64,000 bases of DNA, taken from the NCBI GenBank assembly GCA_033344815.1, contig JAWPMR010000001.1, positions 3,768,136-3,832,135 on the forward strand, in the 5' to 3' direction. The stretch's first letter is position 1. Each line of letters starts with the position of its first letter. Positions 33,715 through 49,128 of the stretch are shown one piece after another. Made by a program: the position numbers and the translations under genes. This DNA comes from Paracoccaceae bacterium (GTDB taxonomy: Bacteria > Pseudomonadota > Alphaproteobacteria > Rhodobacterales > Rhodobacteraceae). Under the pieces are notes generated by a model that searched no databases, was not told the DNA's origin, and saw nothing but the letters and a program-made list of their open reading frames with translations.

Positions 33715-34170
33715 CATCCCTATGTTTCAGTGCGCCGCAGTCGACGGAATTCCACAAGCATAGAAAATTGGATCGTGCGTCATGTCCGCGAAGCCGTCGA
33801 GAGATCTGGGATGGTTCAAGGAAGTTAAGGACGCAGGCTTTTTTGCCTGTGTGACAGCAAGGACAGCTACACCTTGCTTGCGATGCTTTATGAATTGGAA
33901 TTGTGCAGCTTCCTCCGAGGCGAACTCTTCGCCTGTAACTTGGGCCGGCCAGGTTTTCCAACGGCAATTTTGCTGAAGTTGCCTGAAGCGAATGGTGGTA
34001 CCGCACCGGATCGGATACCAGGACACTTTTTCCATCGTCATAAGCAAGACACCCGAGGGCCAGATCTTTTTGTGCGCCGTGTTCATCCTTGCGGGGGAAC
34101 CTTTGCTGGATGGCGCGCGGAGTGGGAAGCGGTCGTGCTTGGTCATCACAGACAGAATCTACATCAGCTA
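33715..34170 (+). pseudogene. Decayed, inverted partial copy of ttcA
   Basis: Frameshifted pieces match the intact TtcA encoded on the other strand at 34286-35164. At 33715 'HPYVSV...IVRHVREAVERSGMV' equals 'HPLFHG...[15 protein letters not shown]'. Then '[15 protein letters not shown]' equals '[15 protein letters not shown]', 'ACNLGRPGFPTAILLKLPE' equals '[19 protein letters not shown]', and 'VVLGHHRQN' equals 'VVLGHHRDD'. The PP-loop SGG is lost and frames are broken. The copy lies tail-to-tail with the intact gene and lacks the last third. Confidence 0.85.
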
Positions 34171-34285
34171 TGCAAAACAGAAATCGCACCAGACGGAAGA
34201 AATCTGCATTGCTAGCCTGGGAGTCTGTCGGTGCATATCATTGCTCAGACACGAATTTCTGTGCGCGAATATGTGCGAAACGCTT

Positions 34286-35164
34286 TTAGTTTTCCTGCGA
34301 TTCTGTGTCCCCTTGGACAGTCTTGTCATTCAGGCTGGTGCCGCGTGCTAGCTGTGAAAAGTCCCAGAGTTTTGGATCCAGCAAGTGCGAAGGGCGTGCA
34401 TTCATCAACGCCCGAAACATGACTTGTCGTCGGCCGGGGCTGTTCTTTTCCCAGTCATCAAGAATCTGTTTAACTTGCTGCCGCTGCAGTCCATCCTGAC
34501 TTCCACACAGGTCACAGGGAATAATTGGGTAGTTCATGGCTTGGGCAAATCGCTCGCAATCCTTCTCTGAAACATGTGCAAGCGGACGAAGAACAAATAG
34601 ATCGCCCTCATCATTCACCAGTTTTGGCGGCATTGTTGCCAGCCTCCCGCCGTGAAAAAGGTTCATGAAAAAGGTTTCCAAGATGTCATCCCTATGGTGG
34701 CCAAGGACGACGGCGCTACACCCCTCCTCTCGTGCAACCCTGTAAAGATTCCCACGGCGCAAACGTGAACACAGCGCACAAAATGTCCGGCCTTCCGGTA
34801 TCTTGTCCATGACGATGGAATAGGTGTCTTGGTATTCGATCCGGTGCGGTACGCCCATCTTTTCGAGGAATTCCGGCAGCACCGTCGCCGGGAACCCGGG
34901 CTGCCCTTGATCGAGGTTGCAGACCAGGATGTCGACCGGCAAGAGCCCTCGCCATTTCAACTCGTGCAGTGCTGCAAGCAGCGTATAACTATCCTTGCCG
35001 CCAGACAGGCAGACGAGCCAACGCGCATCACGTTCTTCAACCATGCCGTATTGCTCGACCGCTTCGCGCACCAAACGCGTTATCCGCTTGCGCAGTTTGC
35101 GGAATTCGGTCGTTTGGGGTGCTCCATGAAAGAGCGGATGAATTTCTTGGGCTAGATCAGACAC
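34286..35164 (-). CDS. ttcA: tRNA 2-thiocytidine(32) synthetase TtcA
   Basis: A 292-residue protein from a GTG at 35164 ([20 protein letters not shown]); a longer frame to 35239 has no family match. The PP-loop '[12 protein letters not shown]' is at about 52-63; '[10 protein letters not shown]' gives the CxxC pair and 'CDLCGSQ' the second cysteine pair expected for the 4Fe-4S cluster. TtcA thiolates C32 of some tRNAs using ATP. A decayed inverted copy (33715-34170) ends 115 bases past its stop, suggesting old duplication or recombination here. Confidence 0.93.
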
Positions 35165-35989
35165 AATACACTGCCTATGCGAAAGAATGAGGTTTCGAAA
35201 GTGCCTATTGTCAACAGGCTGGTAGTGCTGGGATACCAACTGAGCGCTTTGTAAGGCATATTTGGAGGGATATCAGAGCAAGCTGACCGATGCTCTTTAT
35301 CAGGGGATTGAAATCTCCATCCTCGAGCATTTTGCGGAGAGCGCCAGCGGTCAGTTGATCTTTGCAACCTCAGTGTTCTCACGAAGACAAGTCTGACGTC
35401 GTCAAATCAGGTGCTCCGTCGGCCATTCGTTCTGTTTTTAAAGGATTAAATACAAGCTGAACCTGCTGTTCTTGTCGGAGGCCCTCAGGCGGTCAGGATA
35501 TTGGGATTTGGCAAAGGAGAGCTTAGGGAGAGGAGGTCTGGACGAATTATATGCGCGTGCCGTGCGTATGGTCTTGCGTAAAGAGAGTGGGTATCAAAGT
35601 CGTTCATGGCCAACCTGCCGGATTCGGCTTCGGACAAGGCGAACTCGCCGTTTCGCGTATCAGGATCTGGCCCACTTTGGATGCCCGATTTTCCAGGCCT
35701 GTCCGCATGGCGCGGATTTGGCTATGTGGCTCTCGGTATCGACAGTTTTTACTCACTGGACCGTCACTTGAAAGGCGGCGATGTCCCAAGACAACCGGTT
35801 CGTCCCCGATGCTTAGGATCAGGACAATTACGTTCGCCGAGCTGCTGAACGGCGCCTGCACCCCTCTGATCGCGGCTGCCAATATATGTATCCAGCAAAA
35901 CCGCAGAGGGTTCAGTTTGCTCACTTGCTTCACAAGCACAATTAGCGATTTGCCGTTGTTTGTTGGACTGCAAAGCTTCAACGGATCGC
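35165..35989. other. Gene-poor interval between ttcA and the IS3 remnant
   Basis: About 825 bases without a recognisable intact gene. A forward open frame at 35472-35771 (reading LSEALRRSGYWDLAKESLG near its start) may be a scrap of a lost gene, but I cannot name it. The rest reads as broken frames, consistent with DNA decayed after mobile-element activity. Confidence 0.4.
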
Positions 35990-36206
35990 GAGGTCTGGCG
36001 ACAAACCCTTTCGCGCCCGTGCACGACATCTGCGCTCTGCCATACAAACACAGGTAGGCAGGCCCACACAGGCGGAAGTGCGTGTCAAAAAGCGCCAAGA
36101 TGCGCAGCGTCTTGCCCAAGGCGCGCTGGTCTTGGACGATGCCCACAGTCCAAGCATCATTTAGCCCGACGGCCATTTGGCGGTTTCCCCCGAGCTTTGC
36201 TTTCAC
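35990..36206 (-). pseudogene. Degraded IS3-type transposase (OrfB) fragment
   Basis: The reverse strand from 36206 reads VKAKLGGNRQMAVGLNDAWT, then GIVQDQRALGKTLRILALFDTH, which matches the IS3 OrfB core (typically 'VKAKLREDRQEAVGPNDVWAMDFV...LRILTVVDT'). After a frameshift at about 36070, 'ADVV....ERVCRQ' matches the next OrfB block ('GEDVV.TLERVCRQ'). The first catalytic Asp (WAMDFV) is replaced (WTVGIV), and the DDE triad is not complete. It is a relic flanking the accessory island. Confidence 0.75.
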
Positions 36207-36745
36207 CGGGCGCTTCGAGCGCTTTTCTATGAAGTGCAAACACAGGGTCCGAACATCGCTGATCATTGGCTTGACGCCAGATTTGGTTGATGCGCGCCGC
36301 GTCAATCATTCCAATCAAAGCATCAAAAATTGCCGACATATCCCGTGATGTGTTTCGGATGATGGGAGAATGCAAGGGACGGGCTTGATGAAATCAGAAA
36401 GAGGCCATCGCTGCAGGTTTTGCTGAATGGTATTGACGCGAATTTTCGGCAGGATGGTGCTGGCATCCGTCTTATCTTGACTTGGCGGTCAATTGCACGG
36501 CGGTGACCAGAGATCGCGTTTTTCCAAAGGTTGCCAGTACCTTCGGTGACAGCACTTACGGAAGTAGAACCAAAACGTATGTGCCGCCAGCGCGCGGGAT
36601 CAGTTGCAGTGACGGTAGAGCGGCCGAGGGTCGCATCGAGTTTCGTGCCCTGCGTGGCACTGGCGAGCGCCGGGATCTCGCGCCTTGATGATGCTGACAG
36701 TCTCAAGGATTGCAGAGGAAATCCATCTCACGCCGGCGTAGGTAG
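36207..36745. other. Decayed interval between IS3 remnant and island operon
   Basis: 540 bases with only broken frames. Position suggests the rest of the IS3 element and the island edge; no inverted-repeat end was identified by eye. The stop of the PIN-domain gene is at 36746. Confidence 0.35.
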
Positions 36746-39157
36746 CTAAGCCATGGTGAAAGCAATCAGCTTCTTGTTGAACACCTCTGACGTTTCTTGA
36801 TCCATGCGGGTCGCATTGCCCTTGGTCGCAATGATTTTCGCAATGCGCTGCATCACATCCTCTGCCACCTCTCTTCGCTTCTCTTTGTCGGTCTCATAGA
36901 TCAATTGCATGATATCTGGCAGCACCGAGTAGATTTCCGGGAGTGTGGCACCCATTCGTTTAAGGTGGCTGTCAATCTGTGTTACGAAGGGTTCAAACTC
37001 CGAAACATACTTTTTATCGGTCTTGTTGCTTGTATAAAGGCGCTCAAACAGGATGTTGGCAGAGACGGAAATCACCATCTCGACGCTGAGCAGATGCATT
37101 ACTTCCCGGTCGGGATGCTCTTCCAATTCGGCGAGCGCTTCCAAAGCCCTGATAACATGTTCCCAGGAGTTTTTTTGTGCTTCATTTGCCTCTGGTATGT
37201 CCATCTGGTCCCGCTCCAGATGTTCACCATAAGCAAGCGACAGATAGATCATGGAAAGCTCAAGTTCCGAGCGACATATCAGAAAACTGCTGCGCGCATC
37301 TTCTGCCTCATGGAGCAGTGTCCAGGCTGGCTGCACCAGATTTCTGAGGATTGGAAGCCTTTTCCGGGGGCGTTCCAGCGGCATATCAAGTATGGAAAAG
37401 CGGCGGATGACATGAGCAAAGTATCGCAAGTCAATCAGTTCGTGCGGTCTTTTCGGATCGGGCTCTGACGGCGCGGTTTCAAGAGCACGGTCAATAAAGA
37501 ACTCCGCGCTGTCCCAACGGGATGCCCAGAACGCGACGGTCGCGGCAAAAAAGAAAGCGCGATGTGGTTTCACCGTTTCCACCTTGGTGATGATCTCGTC
37601 CAGACGGTCGGTGTCAGGTTTGGCCACAAAACCCGTCAGGAACGCGAACAATGGTTCCTCTATCACATCCTGAAACCGTGACAGCGGCACCGCCACGCCG
37701 CGCCGGGGTGCGGCTGTATGCGCGTTCTGTTCACGCAGTTCCTCGACGATTGCTGCCAGCGTGTGTTGAACACTGAACTTTGCATGCGCCAATTCCACCC
37801 CGGACAAAGTGTCAGAAATCAGATCAAGCACGGCGGTGCGCACATCGTCGGCTTCGACAAGGAAATTTGACAGCGCATTGAAGATTTCGATGCGACGTCC
37901 CAACAGCTTAGCGTTCAAAAATACGGTTTCACGCGACAGCCGCTCCCAGAGTTTTTTCAACTCCTCCAGCGTTTTTTGATAAGCAGGATCGAGGTCGGCT
38001 CTGCGGGCCATTTTTTCGGCCAGTTCGGCCATCGTACTGTGAAACTGCGAATGATTGTCGGAACTTGATCGGCGGTCCCAGCGCGGCAATGGGCGCGGGG
38101 CTTGTCCGACTTGCCCCCATACCGTCAGCAAAAAGGCGGTAACGGCTCGTTTGACATCCTCAAAGATACCAACGGACTTCACCTGGTTGGGCATATCCTT
38201 GGTGTTCAGAAACGGAATGTACTGACCCAGCCGGCGCAGCGGGAAATCCAAGCCCCCGAAGGTGTCTGACTGCGCAAGCCAGTCGATTGCCGCGTTATGC
38301 AAGCCTTGATCTGAAGTCACCAAAACGTATCGGACGCGCCGGCGCATTTTGCCTGCCGCGTATCGTCTTTGGGCTTCGACATTCAAACGGCAGACCTGCA
38401 AAAGCGTTTCAGCATCTCTTGTGACAAGTCTTTGAGTAGAGGCTTTTTCGCCGCCAGTGCGATGCAGTAACAAATGGTGCCGCAAATTCTGCGTGTCATC
38501 TGCAGTGACGGCCATAATCTTGGGGCTGGCCATATCGTCAAGGTGCAACGGTCGCAGCAGATTTTCATGAATGACGCGGGTGAACTCCTGCGCTTCAAAC
38601 GCCTCGTTTGCCAAAAGTTCACCGATTCCGCCAAGCGGGTCCAGTGTTTCGTCAATCGCCTCGCGCAGAGCACTCTCACTTTTGCGACTGTTCATCAGGC
38701 GTACGATTGTCCGGGAAATCTCATGCGTGTGGCTGCCCTCGATCTGACGCCTTGCCTGCTGCCCCAAATGCCGCGCGTGATCTGCGACTTCTTCTGCATG
38801 CGCAGGAGAAATCATGGGTGAGGCACCCCATTGCCCCGCCAGTTGGCGCGACATTAGAAACTCCGCGGTAACCGTCGCCAGCGCCTGCATGGTTTGGACC
38901 GGTGGTCGTTCCAGCGAGCTGATCTTCAGATATTCATCTGACTTGAACGGGTTCAGGAAGAACCGAACCACATTCGCATCAAAGACATAGCGAATCTCGC
39001 CGTGTGCCTTGGCGAATTCAGCGTCATCGCCATTAAAATCAACCGAATTTTGAAGATCAACGGCACCGGCCAGGTAGCGGCCCGACTCATGACCGGCATT
39101 GCCGGTTCGGGCCCTTTCACCGGTGGCGTCAGGCGCCTCTGAGTCAGGCGAGGACAT
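36746..39157 (-). CDS. PIN-like nuclease domain fused to helical repeats (candidate effector)
   Basis: An 803-residue protein from the ATG at 39157, which lies inside the end of the wHTH gene (14-base overlap); a TTG at 39178 would add seven residues. The N-terminal third looks like a PIN-fold nuclease: 'IRYVFDANVVRFFLNP' (Asp60), 'TAEFL' (Glu99), 'RLVTRDAETLLQVCRLN' (Asp248) and 'YVLVTSDQGLHNAA' (Asp283) supply the expected acidic residues, with an unusually long helical insertion between the second and third. From about residue 320 to the end the protein is helical, TPR-like. No signal peptide. I infer an RNase controlled by the helical part; the family name is unknown to me. Confidence 0.7.
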   Translation of the reverse strand: MSSPDSEAPDATGERARTGNAGHESGRYLAGAVDLQNSVDFNGDDAEFAKAHGEIRYVFDANVVRFFLNPFKSDEYLKISSLERPPVQTMQALATVTAEFLMSRQLAGQWGASPMISPAHAEEVADHARHLGQQARRQIEGSHTHEISRTIVRLMNSRKSESALREAIDETLDPLGGIGELLANEAFEAQEFTRVIHENLLRPLHLDDMASPKIMAVTADDTQNLRHHLLLHRTGGEKASTQRLVTRDAETLLQVCRLNVEAQRRYAAGKMRRRVRYVLVTSDQGLHNAAIDWLAQSDTFGGLDFPLRRLGQYIPFLNTKDMPNQVKSVGIFEDVKRAVTAFLLTVWGQVGQAPRPLPRWDRRSSSDNHSQFHSTMAELAEKMARRADLDPAYQKTLEELKKLWERLSRETVFLNAKLLGRRIEIFNALSNFLVEADDVRTAVLDLISDTLSGVELAHAKFSVQHTLAAIVEELREQNAHTAAPRRGVAVPLSRFQDVIEEPLFAFLTGFVAKPDTDRLDEIITKVETVKPHRAFFFAATVAFWASRWDSAEFFIDRALETAPSEPDPKRPHELIDLRYFAHVIRRFSILDMPLERPRKRLPILRNLVQPAWTLLHEAEDARSSFLICRSELELSMIYLSLAYGEHLERDQMDIPEANEAQKNSWEHVIRALEALAELEEHPDREVMHLLSVEMVISVSANILFERLYTSNKTDKKYVSEFEPFVTQIDSHLKRMGATLPEIYSVLPDIMQLIYETDKEKRREVAEDVMQRIAKIIATKGNATRMDQETSEVFNKKLIAFTMA

Positions 39158-40490
39158 GGTCAGTGTGCCCGGGTGCAAAGAAGGCCTTGAAGCGGTCGGC
39201 TAGGGCATTGGATTTCGGCTGTTCAAAAGCAGCCGCAAATTCACTCATACCGGTCTCCTGCAATGCATTTCCGAGCGACAACATCCGATCAATCTGAAGG
39301 GTAAATTCGCCCTGATCGCGAGATATACCCCGATTGATCTGGTCCCATGCGTCGCTGTTGCCTTCAATGATCTGGCGCAATTGTCGCAGCTCGTACCGTT
39401 TTTCCCGCGCGAGCCGCATCAGGTCCACCTGATCACGCCGCTCAAGGCACTGGAGCAAGGATAGGCACAAGAAAGGGTTATAAAGCCGGTGGGACATCAG
39501 GCTATCCACCCAGTTGCCTATGATACTATCCTGCAGCATTGCCGGGTCTTCTGCCAAACCGATCAGTGCCTGATGCATGAAGCGCTGTGTACGCTCATTG
39601 CCATGTGCCGCATTCAGCCGCGCATGCAGGGCACGACCGACAGTGTCATACCCGAGTTTGCAAAAAACATCCGCTATGACCAGATAGGCATTGGCATTTT
39701 CAATGCGGGCCATTGCCATTAACAATCCGCAGATGAGGTAATCCTGACGGATGATCGAGCATTCCTCGGCAGTCTCCAAAATAATCCAAAGCGTGTCATG
39801 CAGGTCTTCTCTTGGGTTGTCATTTTCAGACTGCGTTGGCACCAGTGGATGAAACGCTTTCTGACGCGCAGCCTCGTCACTAAACCAATGCTCGATGGCC
39901 TCTTCGAACCAATCCGCGAAACCGTCGACACCGCGCATCGCAATACTGCCAAGTTTCTCCACAGAGATTTTCATGCCTGCGATCTGGCGATTGAGCCGCG
40001 CCATTTCCTCAGCCACAGCCTCGGGCGGCACATAGCCGGAGTCTGTCCACTCTTTCAGTCGCTGCGTTTCAAAATCATACCACTCGAACGCTTTTTTCAG
40101 CGCATGATCCCGTTCTTCTTTAAACTCCGCACGCTCGGCCTGGGAAAGATGGTAGTGGATGTCACGGCGAATGTCGGGATCTTCAAATGCCCGACGCGCG
40201 CTCTCAGCATCTGACAGCTCGCGCTCGGTCTGCGGGAGGCCGGCAAGAGCGCCCAATTCCTGGCGAATGGCATCGGCCTCCTCGTCGCGCAACCTCCAAA
40301 TTTTCCGAGGACGTCCGCGACTAGGGCTGTTCGTTCCCAGTGAGACGACGTAGCGGCCTTTATTGCTACTTCGCCGTAACCATGAATTGACCGTATGTGG
40401 ATTGACGCCCGTCGCCTTGGCAAGCTGTGCACCGGTGAACTCCTCCAGCGCCAGCATACCAGCGAGTATCTTGTACGTCTCTCCACTCAT
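39144..40490 (-). CDS. Winged helix-turn-helix protein with long helical C-terminus
   Basis: A 448-residue protein. Residues 5-68 look like a winged HTH: 'FTGAQLAKATGVNPHTVNSW' (recognition helix region), then a wing 'GRYVVSLG...RGRPRKIWRL'. Residues 85-180 are charged and probably coiled coil; 200-440 are helical repeats rich in Leu/Ala, resembling the C-terminus of the next gene. It probably binds DNA and a protein partner. A good internal promoter and a palindrome lie just upstream (40521-40569), so autoregulation is plausible. It overlaps the PIN gene, so the two are coupled. Confidence 0.72.
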   Translation of the reverse strand: MSGETYKILAGMLALEEFTGAQLAKATGVNPHTVNSWLRRSSNKGRYVVSLGTNSPSRGRPRKIWRLRDEEADAIRQELGALAGLPQTERELSDAESARRAFEDPDIRRDIHYHLSQAERAEFKEERDHALKKAFEWYDFETQRLKEWTDSGYVPPEAVAEEMARLNRQIAGMKISVEKLGSIAMRGVDGFADWFEEAIEHWFSDEAARQKAFHPLVPTQSENDNPREDLHDTLWIILETAEECSIIRQDYLICGLLMAMARIENANAYLVIADVFCKLGYDTVGRALHARLNAAHGNERTQRFMHQALIGLAEDPAMLQDSIIGNWVDSLMSHRLYNPFLCLSLLQCLERRDQVDLMRLAREKRYELRQLRQIIEGNSDAWDQINRGISRDQGEFTLQIDRMLSLGNALQETGMSEFAAAFEQPKSNALADRFKAFFAPGHTDHVLA

Positions 40491-40520
40491 TGCCTGCGCC
40501 TTTCAACGGATCACACTCCG

Positions 40521-40549
40521 ATTAAACATGCAAATGAGTTTAAAGTCAA
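40521..40549 (-). promoter_or_regulatory. Internal promoter for the wHTH-PIN gene pair
   Basis: On the reverse strand TTGACT (40549-40544) and TTTAAT (40526-40521) are separated by exactly 17 bases, close to sigma-70 consensus, about 30 bases before the wHTH start codon. The AT-rich setting contrasts with neighbouring coding DNA. Confidence 0.6.
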
Positions 40550-40554
40550 TATTT

Positions 40555-41784
40555 TTAATGCACGTGCATTTTTAATCCCAGATTGCGCCTTATCGTGCGC
40601 ATCATGGCTGCCACATCCTTGTTCATGATAAATTGGTGCAGGGGATCAATCAGGGCAATTTGATGTTCTTCCCGGTATTTTGCCTGCTTCATAAGCAGAT
40701 AAAACGTGCTCCGCTCCTCACGCGTCATATAGAGATTTAGGGTAAGGATGACTTGTTCCGCCCAGCCTTTGGGCTTGCCGCCCAGCTTGCGAAGGTAGAC
40801 GAGGAACCTATAGATGTCATTGCGACCACTAGCGCGCGCCCTTCGGATGTCATCGCCCGGATCGTTGGCACCGACTTCCGGCATTTTGTATCTGTTGAGG
40901 TGGTATTCATAACTGGCCTGCCAGAACGCGTTGGCCATTGGCTGCAAAAGTTTAGGCAGGGCGGATTTATCACTCAAGACCTCGGCTTGCAGGATTTCAC
41001 ACGCCACCGCATCAACAGCACCTTCCGTGAAGGCGCAATCCTGATCGACCTGAAAACGGGCCCCATTCAATGCGGCACCCTGTGCGCCATGCACAAAGAC
41101 CTCATGAAAAATCAGATAAGGCAATGAGTGGATTGCGTCGCCAAGCGCATCATCCATTGGTAAATAGACCTGCATGACCGCATCAGTCTTGCCATTTGGT
41201 TGGCGAAACTCGCCATCTACTGGCAACGTGCCAGCAGCGTCTTTCTTGCGCACGGTGGCCAGCATGATTGGCGGTACGATTTCGATGTCATTTCCATCGG
41301 CCAGCAGCCGCTGATATTCCAGCTCTGCCTGCCTGATGAAGCGACGCGTTATCTGTCGCAGGAAATCGAGGCACCGTCCGCCGGTCTCATGCTGAAACTG
41401 GAACAGGTCCGCCTCTCCGCCTTTGCACCATTTGTTTTCAACCCCACACTGACCACAATCGAAAGCCTCAACCATCGCTCCCATTTTTTCGCGCGCAGAT
41501 ACGAATGTTTCTGCTTCATGCGCGGCGGTATGGGCTTTCACCCGCTTGAGATACATTTCCAGAAAATCAATCAGGCTGATCGGTTCAGGCGCTTCGCCAT
41601 CTTCGTGCAATGCTGAATCGATCTGGGCTTTGACTGTGAGGGCATAATTCTTGTGGTCCGGGGTGTGGTCTTCAGAGAATTCGATAAGGTGCGCCTGTCC
41701 AACGAGGTGGACAATCCACGCAGCCAGACGTTTGCGTGCCCGAAGGTCAAGCTGGGTGTCTTCGACATAAGTAATCCGGCCCAA
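40555..41784 (-). CDS. Predicted zinc metallopeptidase (HExxxH type) of the island operon
   Basis: A 409-residue cytosolic protein. 'LPYLIFHEVFVHGAQG' holds a HExxxH motif (His227, Glu228, His232), and 22 residues later 'FTEGAVDAVACEIL' offers Glu254 as third zinc ligand with Asp258 beside it, a gluzincin-like arrangement. Three cysteines at 110, 113 and 120 (CGQCGVENKWC) could bind metal or be redox-active. The start is a TTG at 41784, three bases after the upstream gene's stop with GGGAAG before it. I know no named family for it. In this operon it may be a proteolytic effector or activator. Confidence 0.65.
   Translation of the reverse strand: MGRITYVEDTQLDLRARKRLAAWIVHLVGQAHLIEFSEDHTPDHKNYALTVKAQIDSALHEDGEAPEPISLIDFLEMYLKRVKAHTAAHEAETFVSAREKMGAMVEAFDCGQCGVENKWCKGGEADLFQFQHETGGRCLDFLRQITRRFIRQAELEYQRLLADGNDIEIVPPIMLATVRKKDAAGTLPVDGEFRQPNGKTDAVMQVYLPMDDALGDAIHSLPYLIFHEVFVHGAQGAALNGARFQVDQDCAFTEGAVDAVACEILQAEVLSDKSALPKLLQPMANAFWQASYEYHLNRYKMPEVGANDPGDDIRRARASGRNDIYRFLVYLRKLGGKPKGWAEQVILTLNLYMTREERSTFYLLMKQAKYREEHQIALIDPLHQFIMNKDVAAMMRTIRRNLGLKMHVH
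40558..40569. promoter_or_regulatory. Perfect 12-base palindrome, candidate operator
   Basis: ATGCACGTGCAT, a perfect palindrome covering the last codons of the metallopeptidase gene (KMHVH then stop) and lying eight bases upstream of the internal promoter's -35 box. Its placement fits an operator, perhaps for the wHTH protein encoded next. Confidence 0.4.
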
Positions 41785-41787
41785 CGG

Positions 41788-42141
41788 TCAGCTTCCCGCC
41801 ACAGGTGGTTCCTTGTCGGTAGAAAAGCGTTTCTTGATCTGGGGTTCGATCATAAGCTTCCAAGCCTTCTTGAGTGCCTCCATTACAACGGCGGTCGCTA
41901 CCGCGCTGCCGACTTTGATCAAAATCGCCGTCATGACATCTGCGCGGTTTCCTTCCTCCTTTGGCGCAGCAACCACAGGCGGTTCCTGTCCCAAATCATC
42001 AATTACCGTCAGATCAACGCCCCGCGCCTCGGCCAGCTTGCGCGTATCCTTATCATTCAGCAAAAGACTCCATTGCCTTTTGATTTCTCGGTTCACATCA
42101 TCAGATTTCGCAGAACCAAGCTCAGTGAGTGCGTCAGTCAC
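41788..42141 (-). CDS. Small protein with hydrophobic/amphipathic C-terminal helix
   Basis: A 117-residue product from the GTG at 42141, preceded by GGAG at good spacing (ggagattaccGTG); the frame continues upstream without homology. Residues 1-50 are polar and helical (VTDALTELGSAKSDDVNREI...). Residues about 67-98 form a long Ala/Val-rich helix, 'VMTAILIKVGSAVATAVVME' then 'ALKKAW', followed by a basic 'PQIKKRF' tail. It could be a membrane-associating or adaptor module. It is the first gene of the four-gene operon and ends three bases before the metallopeptidase. Family unknown. Confidence 0.6.
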   Translation of the reverse strand: MTDALTELGSAKSDDVNREIKRQWSLLLNDKDTRKLAEARGVDLTVIDDLGQEPPVVAAPKEEGNRADVMTAILIKVGSAVATAVVMEALKKAWKLMIEPQIKKRFSTDKEPPVAGS

Positions 42142-42282
42142 GGTAATCTCCAAATACAAATTTAAAATAAAAGTTAATAATACTCGTTTTGAGCGAGTTT
42201 TCCAGAGCACGCATTCATTTTTGACGTGGATTTTCAGAGCGCATCACCTTTTTCAGGGTGGATCAGAGCGCGACAATCGCCC
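42142..42282 (-). promoter_or_regulatory. AT-rich promoter region of the island operon
   Basis: An AT-rich stretch (42142-42182) contains a possible -10 TATTAT (reverse strand, 42182-42177). Just upstream is an inverted repeat ACTCG-N7-CGAGT (42182-42198), well placed for an operator. Further out, two diverged copies of a motif containing CAGAGCGC occur at 42224-42242 and 42258-42272 in direct orientation. No good -35 was found. Confidence 0.45.
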
Positions 42283-42908: not shown

Positions 42909-43360
42909 GTCGGTCCAGCCAACGTCATTCGCTTCATCGATGCCTTGGCAGGTAGGCTTGGTCTTGCGGCGCGCCGCTTTGCGTCAGCCAGCCTGAAACG
43001 AACGGGCAGGCGGGGCTACCACCCCTGCCATTTGCTTAAGCTCTGTAGGACTGGATATCTCAACCGCGAACGAACTAGCCGGCGGTTAGGGGCAGAGGCG
43101 CGCCGAAGCCTGAAAAGGCCTGGCTGATGCGTCAACTATGTTCAGAATTCAGATCCATTGCCGACTTTTTGGTGCCTGCATCGCAAGGCCTTCAAGCAGG
43201 TATTTCATCAGTTTCTTGTTCTGCGCCAGAATCTTAAACGCAGGGGCGCGAGTGCTCCGCTTTAGGCGGCACCCGGATCAAAGTCGTGAACAAGAAGCGC
43301 CGCAATTTATCCGAGCCCTGCTCGACAAGCTGATCCGGTCGCATGACGAAAGCCTGAAGA
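42909..43360 (+). pseudogene. Degraded IS1182-like transposase fragment
   Basis: From 42909 the frame reads VGPANVIRFIDALAG, then 'YHPCHLLKLCRTGYLNRE', matching the N-terminal domain of IS1182-like transposases ('YHPATLLKLYIYGYLNR...SSRRLEREA'). After the stop at 43125 'EFRSIADF' (family 'DFKTIADF') and 'GTRIKVVNKKRRNLSEP' (family 'GSKFKAVNNRDRNFT') follow, then 'ALLDKLIRSHDESLKK'. Stops and frameshifts are frequent, so it is a relic. It marks the right side of the island. Confidence 0.75.
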
Positions 43361-48306: not shown

Positions 48307-49128
48307 ATGAGAACCAAGCGTTTCGTGATCGCACTATGTGTACTTTTTTTAGCAACACCCATGGCAATCTCAGCACCGGTGGATGTGTCTGAAACGATCC
48401 GGGAATCCGGCGTGGATATCAGTGCGTCCACCGTCGTGATCCGCCGTGTTTCAGATGGTCAGACATGGATCAGCAACCGACAACGTGCGGCTGAACGTTT
48501 CATACCTGCATCCACCTCCAAAATCCCGCATACGATCGTCGCCTTGGAGACCGGGGTTTCATCTTTTGACACTGTGTTTGAATGGGACGGGAAGCGTCGT
48601 TTCCTCGACTCATGGAACATGGATCAGACGCTTGCAACTGCTTATCAAAGATCCGCCGTTTGGGTGTTTCAGGACATTGCAGACGCGGTTGGACATGCTC
48701 AGATGGCGCATTGGATCCAGCGATTGGAATATGGAAATCGTAATATCGGTGATGCGACGCGGCTAACGACGTATTGGCTGCAAGGACCGCTGAAAATTTC
48801 GGCGCTGGAGCAGATCGACTTTCTGGAACGGTTGGTTTCGGACAAACTGTCGGTGTCACCCGGCACAGTGGATAAGGCCCGAGAGATCATGCGTGCCGAC
48901 AGCGGACCCGATTGGAGCCTTTATGCCAAGACGGGGTGGGGACTTCGAGTCGATGAACCCGATATCGGGTGGTATGTTGGATGGCTGGAGCAAAATGAAC
49001 CAGTGCCGGAGATTTACATTTTCGCCTTTAATCTCGATATGGCAAGTTCTCAGGATCGACACAGGCGCGAACAGACTGTTCGGCATATACTTGCGGACAT
49101 CGGTGTACTGGCAGCCGAGGCTCCTTGA
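48307..49128 (+). CDS. Class D (OXA-type) beta-lactamase
   Basis: A 273-residue periplasmic protein with signal peptide MRTKRFVIALCVLFLATPMA. All class D motifs are present: the nucleophile in 'PASTSKIP' (Ser69, Lys72 of STxK), 'SAV' at 116-118 (SxV), 'YGN' at 142-144, 'YWLQGPLKIS' with the omega-loop Trp, and 'KTG' at 208-210. It should hydrolyse beta-lactams, with Lys72 carbamylated. No transposon, integron or regulator is attached, so it seems a resident chromosomal gene. Confidence 0.92.
   Translation: MRTKRFVIALCVLFLATPMAISAPVDVSETIRESGVDISASTVVIRRVSDGQTWISNRQRAAERFIPASTSKIPHTIVALETGVSSFDTVFEWDGKRRFLDSWNMDQTLATAYQRSAVWVFQDIADAVGHAQMAHWIQRLEYGNRNIGDATRLTTYWLQGPLKISALEQIDFLERLVSDKLSVSPGTVDKAREIMRADSGPDWSLYAKTGWGLRVDEPDIGWYVGWLEQNEPVPEIYIFAFNLDMASSQDRHRREQTVRHILADIGVLAAEAP

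Follow-up and report, generated by a model that had tools for sequence, protein, structure and literature searches.

In passages of PMC13373217 and PMC10904395, CapH-CapP is a peptidase and helix-turn-helix (HTH) pair that stands beside immune operons and acts by repressor cleavage triggered by single-stranded DNA, CapH and CapP being the controllers of CBASS and Bub operons. EACC1-caspase two-gene systems, as a part of PMC7159879 presents them, encode a small protein with a single transmembrane segment and, after it, a peptidase, the effectors being exchangeable. The operon here presented resembles both in layout, with another peptidase type. It occupies positions 36746..42141, on the minus strand, of a 64,000-nucleotide stretch of Paracoccaceae bacterium DNA (GCA_033344815.1, JAWPMR010000001.1, 3,768,136-3,832,135), hereafter the window, to which all unlabelled coordinates refer, and is a rare, mobile and uncatalogued module, no description of this gene set being recognised in the open-licence literature searched. 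Its four genes encode, in order, a small protein, a peptidase-like protein with HExxxH...EGxxD motifs, a winged HTH (wHTH) protein and a PIN-like/TPR-like protein (PIN-TPR), and are compared below with three other loci, L004, L008 and L009:

41788..42141, minus strand: small protein, 117 residues, GTG start; relatives in the same place in L004 and L008 and, by alignment, in L009
40555..41784, minus strand: zincin-like (gluzincin-type) peptidase-like protein, 409 residues, from homologues, model and structural alignment
39144..40490, minus strand: wHTH protein, 448 residues, whose N-terminal wHTH aligns with L004 and L008
36746..39157, minus strand: PIN-like and TPR-like protein, 803 residues, from homologues, model and fold matches

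These four genes and their order, with gaps of 3 and 64 bases and then an overlap of 14, had been put forward in an earlier note and were borne out from the sequence and its open reading frames (ORFs). The likeliest start of the small gene is the GTG at 42141, preceded by a GGAG run, and that of the PIN-like gene is the ATG at 39157. The same note could match the set to no named system, and this has held for the catalogues checked: all four proteins stay below the curated cut-offs of Pfam and NCBIfam, and no PADLOC model fits convincingly, the single match at E <= 1 being that of Csa3 to the wHTH protein at a chance-level E of 0.017. PHROGs (E <= 0.1) returned one weak match each (E 0.09) for the PIN-TPR and wHTH proteins and none for the peptidase or the small protein, and no credible relative of the operon proteins was found by PDB sequence searches.

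Related loci and distribution

Co-occurrence of the genes in other genomes, by which the earlier note would have judged its reading, was found. All four lie in the same order and on one strand in L004 (genome G374, of another family in the same class), encoding a small protein of 154 residues, a peptidase-like one of 438, a wHTH protein of 545 and a PIN-like one of 1145; there the first possible peptidase start overlaps the small gene, and the PIN-like gene follows one base after the wHTH gene. The first three genes are present in two more loci, namely L008 (genome G1098, of the same family as the window; 129, 384 and 444 residues) and L009 (plasmid unnamed4 of Rhizobium sp. 007, NZ_CP064191.1, typed as conjugative; 141, 376 and 438 residues), the latter with no PIN-like gene after the three-gene core. 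Small, peptidase and wHTH genes thus stand in this order in 4/4 loci with readable context, and the PIN-TPR gene in 2/4, one of the two loci without it (L008) ending 310 bases past the wHTH gene. A constant core of small protein, peptidase and wHTH protein, with PIN-TPR as an exchangeable effector, is the best reading of this pattern. Pairwise E values are 3e-4 (window-L004), 3e-7 (window-L008) and 2e-24 (L008-L009) for the small proteins, and 1e-6, 1e-4 and 3e-56, respectively, for the wHTH proteins; on such alignments, whose support is modest but consistent, the four genes are a real conserved unit beyond the source genome. Three of the seven other PIN homologues have a longest contig equal in size to that of a peptidase homologue (6014, 6131 and 33369), which suggests linkage without proving it.

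The module is so rare that reading of raw sequence finds it ahead of family catalogues. Besides the window's own, 16 peptidase homologues were found in 5.77 billion proteins, and 7 PIN-like ones among the best 7993 candidates scored from that set. Among sampled genomes, the peptidase family occurs in 1/59 of the relatives (the window genome; 18/18 other genomes of the genus are without it), in 2/394 of the family (the window genome and G1098), in 2/385 of the class (the window genome and G374), in 1/398 of the phylum (the window genome) and in 1/17 of the genomes of G374's own family. A profile search that scored no more than 7995 candidates recovered three proteins, those of the window and of Rhizobium together with P0027, and missed the other peptidase homologues. 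No relatives were found in the scan of phage sequences, or in plasmid scans made with the window peptidase, the window PIN, the L004 PIN-like and the L004 wHTH proteins. None were found in genome and viral contigs either, a weak negative given the few short peptide patterns searched, which returned no L004-like locus from genome contigs.

The peptidase-like protein

41089..41106, minus strand: HExxxH motif (H227, E228, H232), in 17/17 sequences of alignment A1 and invariant in L004, L008 and L009
41011..41025, minus strand: EGxxD motif (E254, D258), putative source of the third metal ligand, with the same conservation
41371..41457, minus strand: four-cysteine site (C110, C113, C120, C138), possible structural zinc site, in 17/17 of A1 and kept in L004

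The four-cysteine site is missing from L008 and L009. The structure model (pLDDT 90.4) displays a probable zincin-type core in a mostly helical surround, and its helices 214-233 and 251-269 reproduce the gluzincin arrangement of an HEx(2-3)H helix with the ligand glutamate on the next one. By its invariant motifs and modelled core, the metallopeptidase of the earlier note is a putative one of gluzincin type, with predicted proteolytic activity. Structural alignments with DUF885, M49 DPP III and MATCAP/TMCP zincins, which have a similar gluzincin-like arrangement, give about 7-11% identity. M49 and TMCP share HExxxH, and TMCP also has an EEG motif, according to a part of PMC10499314; HExxxH is likewise present in 17/17 sequences of A1, the window peptidase among them. 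The window protein differs from all these zincins by its conserved four-cysteine site, its operon context and its lack of a Pfam match (no family at E <= 1, DUF885, PF05960, included).

CapP, with its HExxH, belongs to the ImmA/IrrE type. The window peptidase, in contrast, carries HExxxH...EG in its mostly helical surround, has no PADLOC match at E <= 1 (capP included) and is not of CapP type, and its wHTH neighbour measures 448 residues. The likeness to CapH/CapP, as far as passages of PMC13373217 and PMC10904395 describe it, lies in adjoining genes for a metallopeptidase and an HTH protein next to an effector operon, with proteolysis of the HTH protein as the proposed switch.

The wHTH protein

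40251..40475, minus strand: wHTH region (residues 6-80), from sub-threshold generic HTH matches and alignment with L004

Within the operon, sub-threshold generic HTH matches come from this region only, and alignment shows an N-terminal wHTH common to all four loci. The C-terminal part of the window protein, judged by eye, is rich in predicted helix. The wHTH proteins of the two loci without PIN-TPR (L008 10657-11988 and L009 15940-17253) are 32% identical over their whole length, with a common C-terminal part. This part does not align with that of the window, had no family or PDB match, and may be a candidate alternative effector. The wHTH proteins also gave SufR- and IS630-type matches, which were rejected since they cover the generic HTH part only; likewise rejected was the match of the wHTH profile to a PDB lectin chain (E 6.3e-4), which spans 63 positions with no stretch passing alone.

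The PIN-TPR protein

38213..39010, minus strand: PIN-like region, about residues 50-315 (D60, E123, D248, D283), with a helical insertion, from invariant acids and predicted secondary structure
36749..37819, minus strand: TPR-like helical repeats, residues 447-803, from the fold search

D60, E99, E123, D248 and D283 are invariant in 8/8 PIN-like homologues and include the four acids of a PIN domain (D60, E123, D248, D283). The distant L004 protein keeps E123, has no glutamate aligned with E99 and has lost D283. Glu99, named as a PIN acid in the earlier note, therefore gives way to E123 as the more likely canonical glutamate, and D60/E123/D248/D283 to the likelier set. The AlphaFold2 model is poor (pLDDT 66.8). 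In it a strand precedes D60, a short one at 115-116 directly precedes the E123 helix, D248 lies in a helix at 238-267 and D283 comes after a strand at 275-281, which is the order expected for PIN domains. Whole-model fold searches returned TPR and other helical chains, with no PIN chain among the 50 matches listed, which proves nothing. PF01850 was not matched by hmmscan, nor was PF20698, the PIN domain of PIN-TPR-GreABC, by the window protein or G000. Comparison by hhalign with PF01850 proteins of 15/16 loci (L022, with no ORF passing the motif filter, was left out) gave local P values of 0.003-0.005 at 7-10% probability and global ones of 0.03-0.14, with a weak local match near the first strand. 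The window and L004 proteins align along the PIN-like region, weakly by hhalign (P 0.033, probability 1.5%), their kinship being argued from the same position and the shared residues. Thus, of the PIN domain claimed earlier, a PIN-like N-terminal domain stands on invariant acids and a compatible predicted secondary structure, fold and profile searches having failed to confirm it.

EAD-TPR-GreA/B-C-PIN single-gene systems, described in a section of PMC8195603, are predicted to act in conflict and likewise combine PIN with TPR in a single protein. The window protein differs by its N-terminal PIN-like region and by the lack of GreA/B-C and PF20698 matches, its peptidase and wHTH partners being encoded by separate genes.

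The PIN-like region, the coupling of the genes by their 14-base overlap and the plasmid and island locations would all suit a maintenance module of toxin-antitoxin type, in which PIN-TPR would act as toxin, neutralised by the wHTH and/or small protein, and the peptidase would set antitoxin turnover. Nonetheless, the core occurs without PIN-TPR in 2/4 loci (of which one lies close to the end of its contig), and VapC toxins are far smaller than 803 residues. VapBC, moreover, joins a small antitoxin to a small PIN toxin, whereas the PIN-like protein here adjoins a 448-residue wHTH protein, and such a module is regarded as quite unlikely.

The small protein

41881..41937, minus strand: hydrophobic 19-residue segment (residues 69-87), possible membrane helix, mean hydropathy 2.02

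The small proteins of all four loci can be aligned in their N-terminal part and each contain a single hydrophobic stretch of 19 residues, of mean hydropathy 1.67-2.27, and the observed values were reached by 67 (window), 471 (L004), 94 (L008) and 15 (L009) of 5000 composition-keeping shuffles. Among the other window proteins, taken as controls, the peptidase reaches 1.08 and the wHTH protein 1.13, but PIN-TPR 1.74, and because of the latter value a putative membrane helix is only plausible. Small proteins of L008 (9024-9413) and L009 (14308-14733) have a common C-terminal tail, PPG..LG..RD, which those of the window and L004 lack. This tail could be a candidate processed peptide. Neither an FxSxx motif nor a tail common to all was found in the four proteins. 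A profile match to PDB 8vd6 (E 7.8e-6) was rejected because its E value adds up five repeats of that chain, each below threshold.

As in EACC1-caspase systems, within what a part of PMC7159879 tells of them, the operon has at its 5' end the gene of a small protein with a lone hydrophobic segment, next comes a peptidase gene, and effector parts are exchangeable; it differs in its zincin-like rather than caspase peptidase, its small protein without a Pfam match and its extra wHTH gene. FxSxx pairs, treated in the same part of PMC7159879, similarly combine a small divergent protein with a neighbouring zincin gene in a context of conflict, and in two of the four small proteins here the C-terminus is a common tail with RD near its end. 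The differences here are the lack of an FxSxx motif and of a tail in all four, and that no radical-SAM gene was seen in the four operons.

In both EACC1 and FxSxx systems a small protein has a peptidase as its partner (PMC7159879, in part), and here too the effector or signal might be the peptidase itself, or else the small protein, intact or as a cut peptide, in a gasdermin-, EACC1- or FxSxx-like manner, PIN-TPR being accessory. The constancy of both proteins and of the hydrophobic segment in 4/4 loci favours this, as does the L008/L009 tail, such as a released peptide might show. On the other side, the L004 segment is unexceptional in the shuffles, the tail is restricted to two loci, the match to MakB (E 0.065) is not significant and no known small component is matched in Pfam, so that this explanation appears very unlikely.

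Mobility and defence context

36001..36224 (about), no strand assigned: remnant of an IS3-type transposase on one flank of the operon, 68% identical to an annotated IS3 transposase of a Phaeobacter plasmid
43024..43204 (about), no strand assigned: transposase remnant on the other flank, 70% identical to an annotated transposase of a Rhizobium sullae plasmid

The G1098 cassette occupies one end of a 17-kb stretch between 136-bp, 88% direct repeats (L036 14050-14185 and L008 12086-12221; contig 12), the repeat overlapping one end of a tRNA-Met gene. This island also carries DUF499 and DUF1156-methylase genes, by PADLOC, and a helicase-like gene, by eye, a trio that fits the BREX-related systems of PMC12839542 as partly described there. 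In the Rhizobium plasmid, 3.3 to 8.4 kb past the wHTH gene (L009 20584-25617), genes with CapP/CapH-model matches stand with multiubiquitin, E1-type, phosphotransferase/TCAD9 and DUF6527 genes, perhaps as a candidate Bub-type operon. The conflict system suggested in the earlier note hence gains from the mobile DNA and from two other loci near known or candidate defence genes, and a conflict function is probable on these genomic grounds.

In the window itself, the ten neighbour ORFs scanned, with Pfam only, are ordinary genes and do not support a defence island. They speak rather for a mobile stress-response or regulatory operon not directed against invaders, in which the wHTH-peptidase pair would sense damage and PIN-TPR would trim cellular RNAs. 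Protease-repressor pairs in PprI-DdrO style serve DNA-damage responses in a passage of PMC10904395, and according to one of PMC13373217 a role in broader stress responses is possible for some operons of this kind. Against this stand the rare and patchy distribution, the island with a BREX-related system and the conjugative plasmid, which leave a stress operon an unlikely explanation.

Proposed mechanism

Control of RNase release or expression by the peptidase is proposed because the layout resembles CapP-CapH and EACC1 systems. At rest, the wHTH protein would repress the operon and/or hold PIN-TPR, and the small protein, perhaps membrane-associated, would restrain or position the peptidase. 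An invasion cue would free the peptidase, which might then cleave the small protein and/or the wHTH protein, the latter as CapP does CapH; this cleavage would raise expression and release PIN-TPR, and this would cut cellular or invader RNA, so that growth would stop. In loci without PIN-TPR, the different C-terminal domain of the wHTH protein may serve as effector. That the operon serves in conflict, probably against phages or mobile elements, as a module that moves horizontally in Alphaproteobacteria, and works by this peptidase switch, is advanced tentatively, with somewhat less than even confidence in the two together. It is doubtful, though conceivable, that it represents a new class of immune system, in which an HExxxH gluzincin-type protease and a small membrane-associated protein would form the constant sensor-switch, the wHTH protein would be both substrate and adaptor, and effectors (a PIN-TPR RNase or a wHTH C-terminal domain) would be exchanged. 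If so, an immune module built on the unusual HExxxH type of zinc peptidase would join the known caspase-, trypsin- and ImmA-type protease-controlled ones, proteins beyond the reach of the curated families searched would acquire a context, and a testable switch would be offered, namely cutting of a neighbour by the peptidase upon phage arrival.

Flanking features

42177..42204, minus strand: promoter-like site directly upstream of the small gene, weak (5 sites in the region vs 4.6 by chance)

The ttcA gene adjoins EAL and YidC genes in the window and in 8/8 same-genus loci fetched; because the other side of ttcA in these relatives does not match the corresponding side in the window, the comparison supports no more than a synteny break there, and identifies no empty site. 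A decayed, inverted partial ttcA copy at 33715-34200 (81% over 79 bases and 85% over 26) adjoins the intact ttcA at 34286-35239; it also matches the ttcA loci of 8/8 relatives fetched and marks an old rearrangement. Elsewhere in the window, positions 48307-49125 encode a 273-residue protein with a PF00905 transpeptidase domain, presumably similar in size to class D beta-lactamases. Caspase-like and WD40-repeat genes were seen by eye outside the G1098 17-kb island. Giant ORFs flank the L004 cassette on both sides, of 3312 and at least 4057 residues (L037 5225-15163 and L038 1-12174; G374 contig 40).
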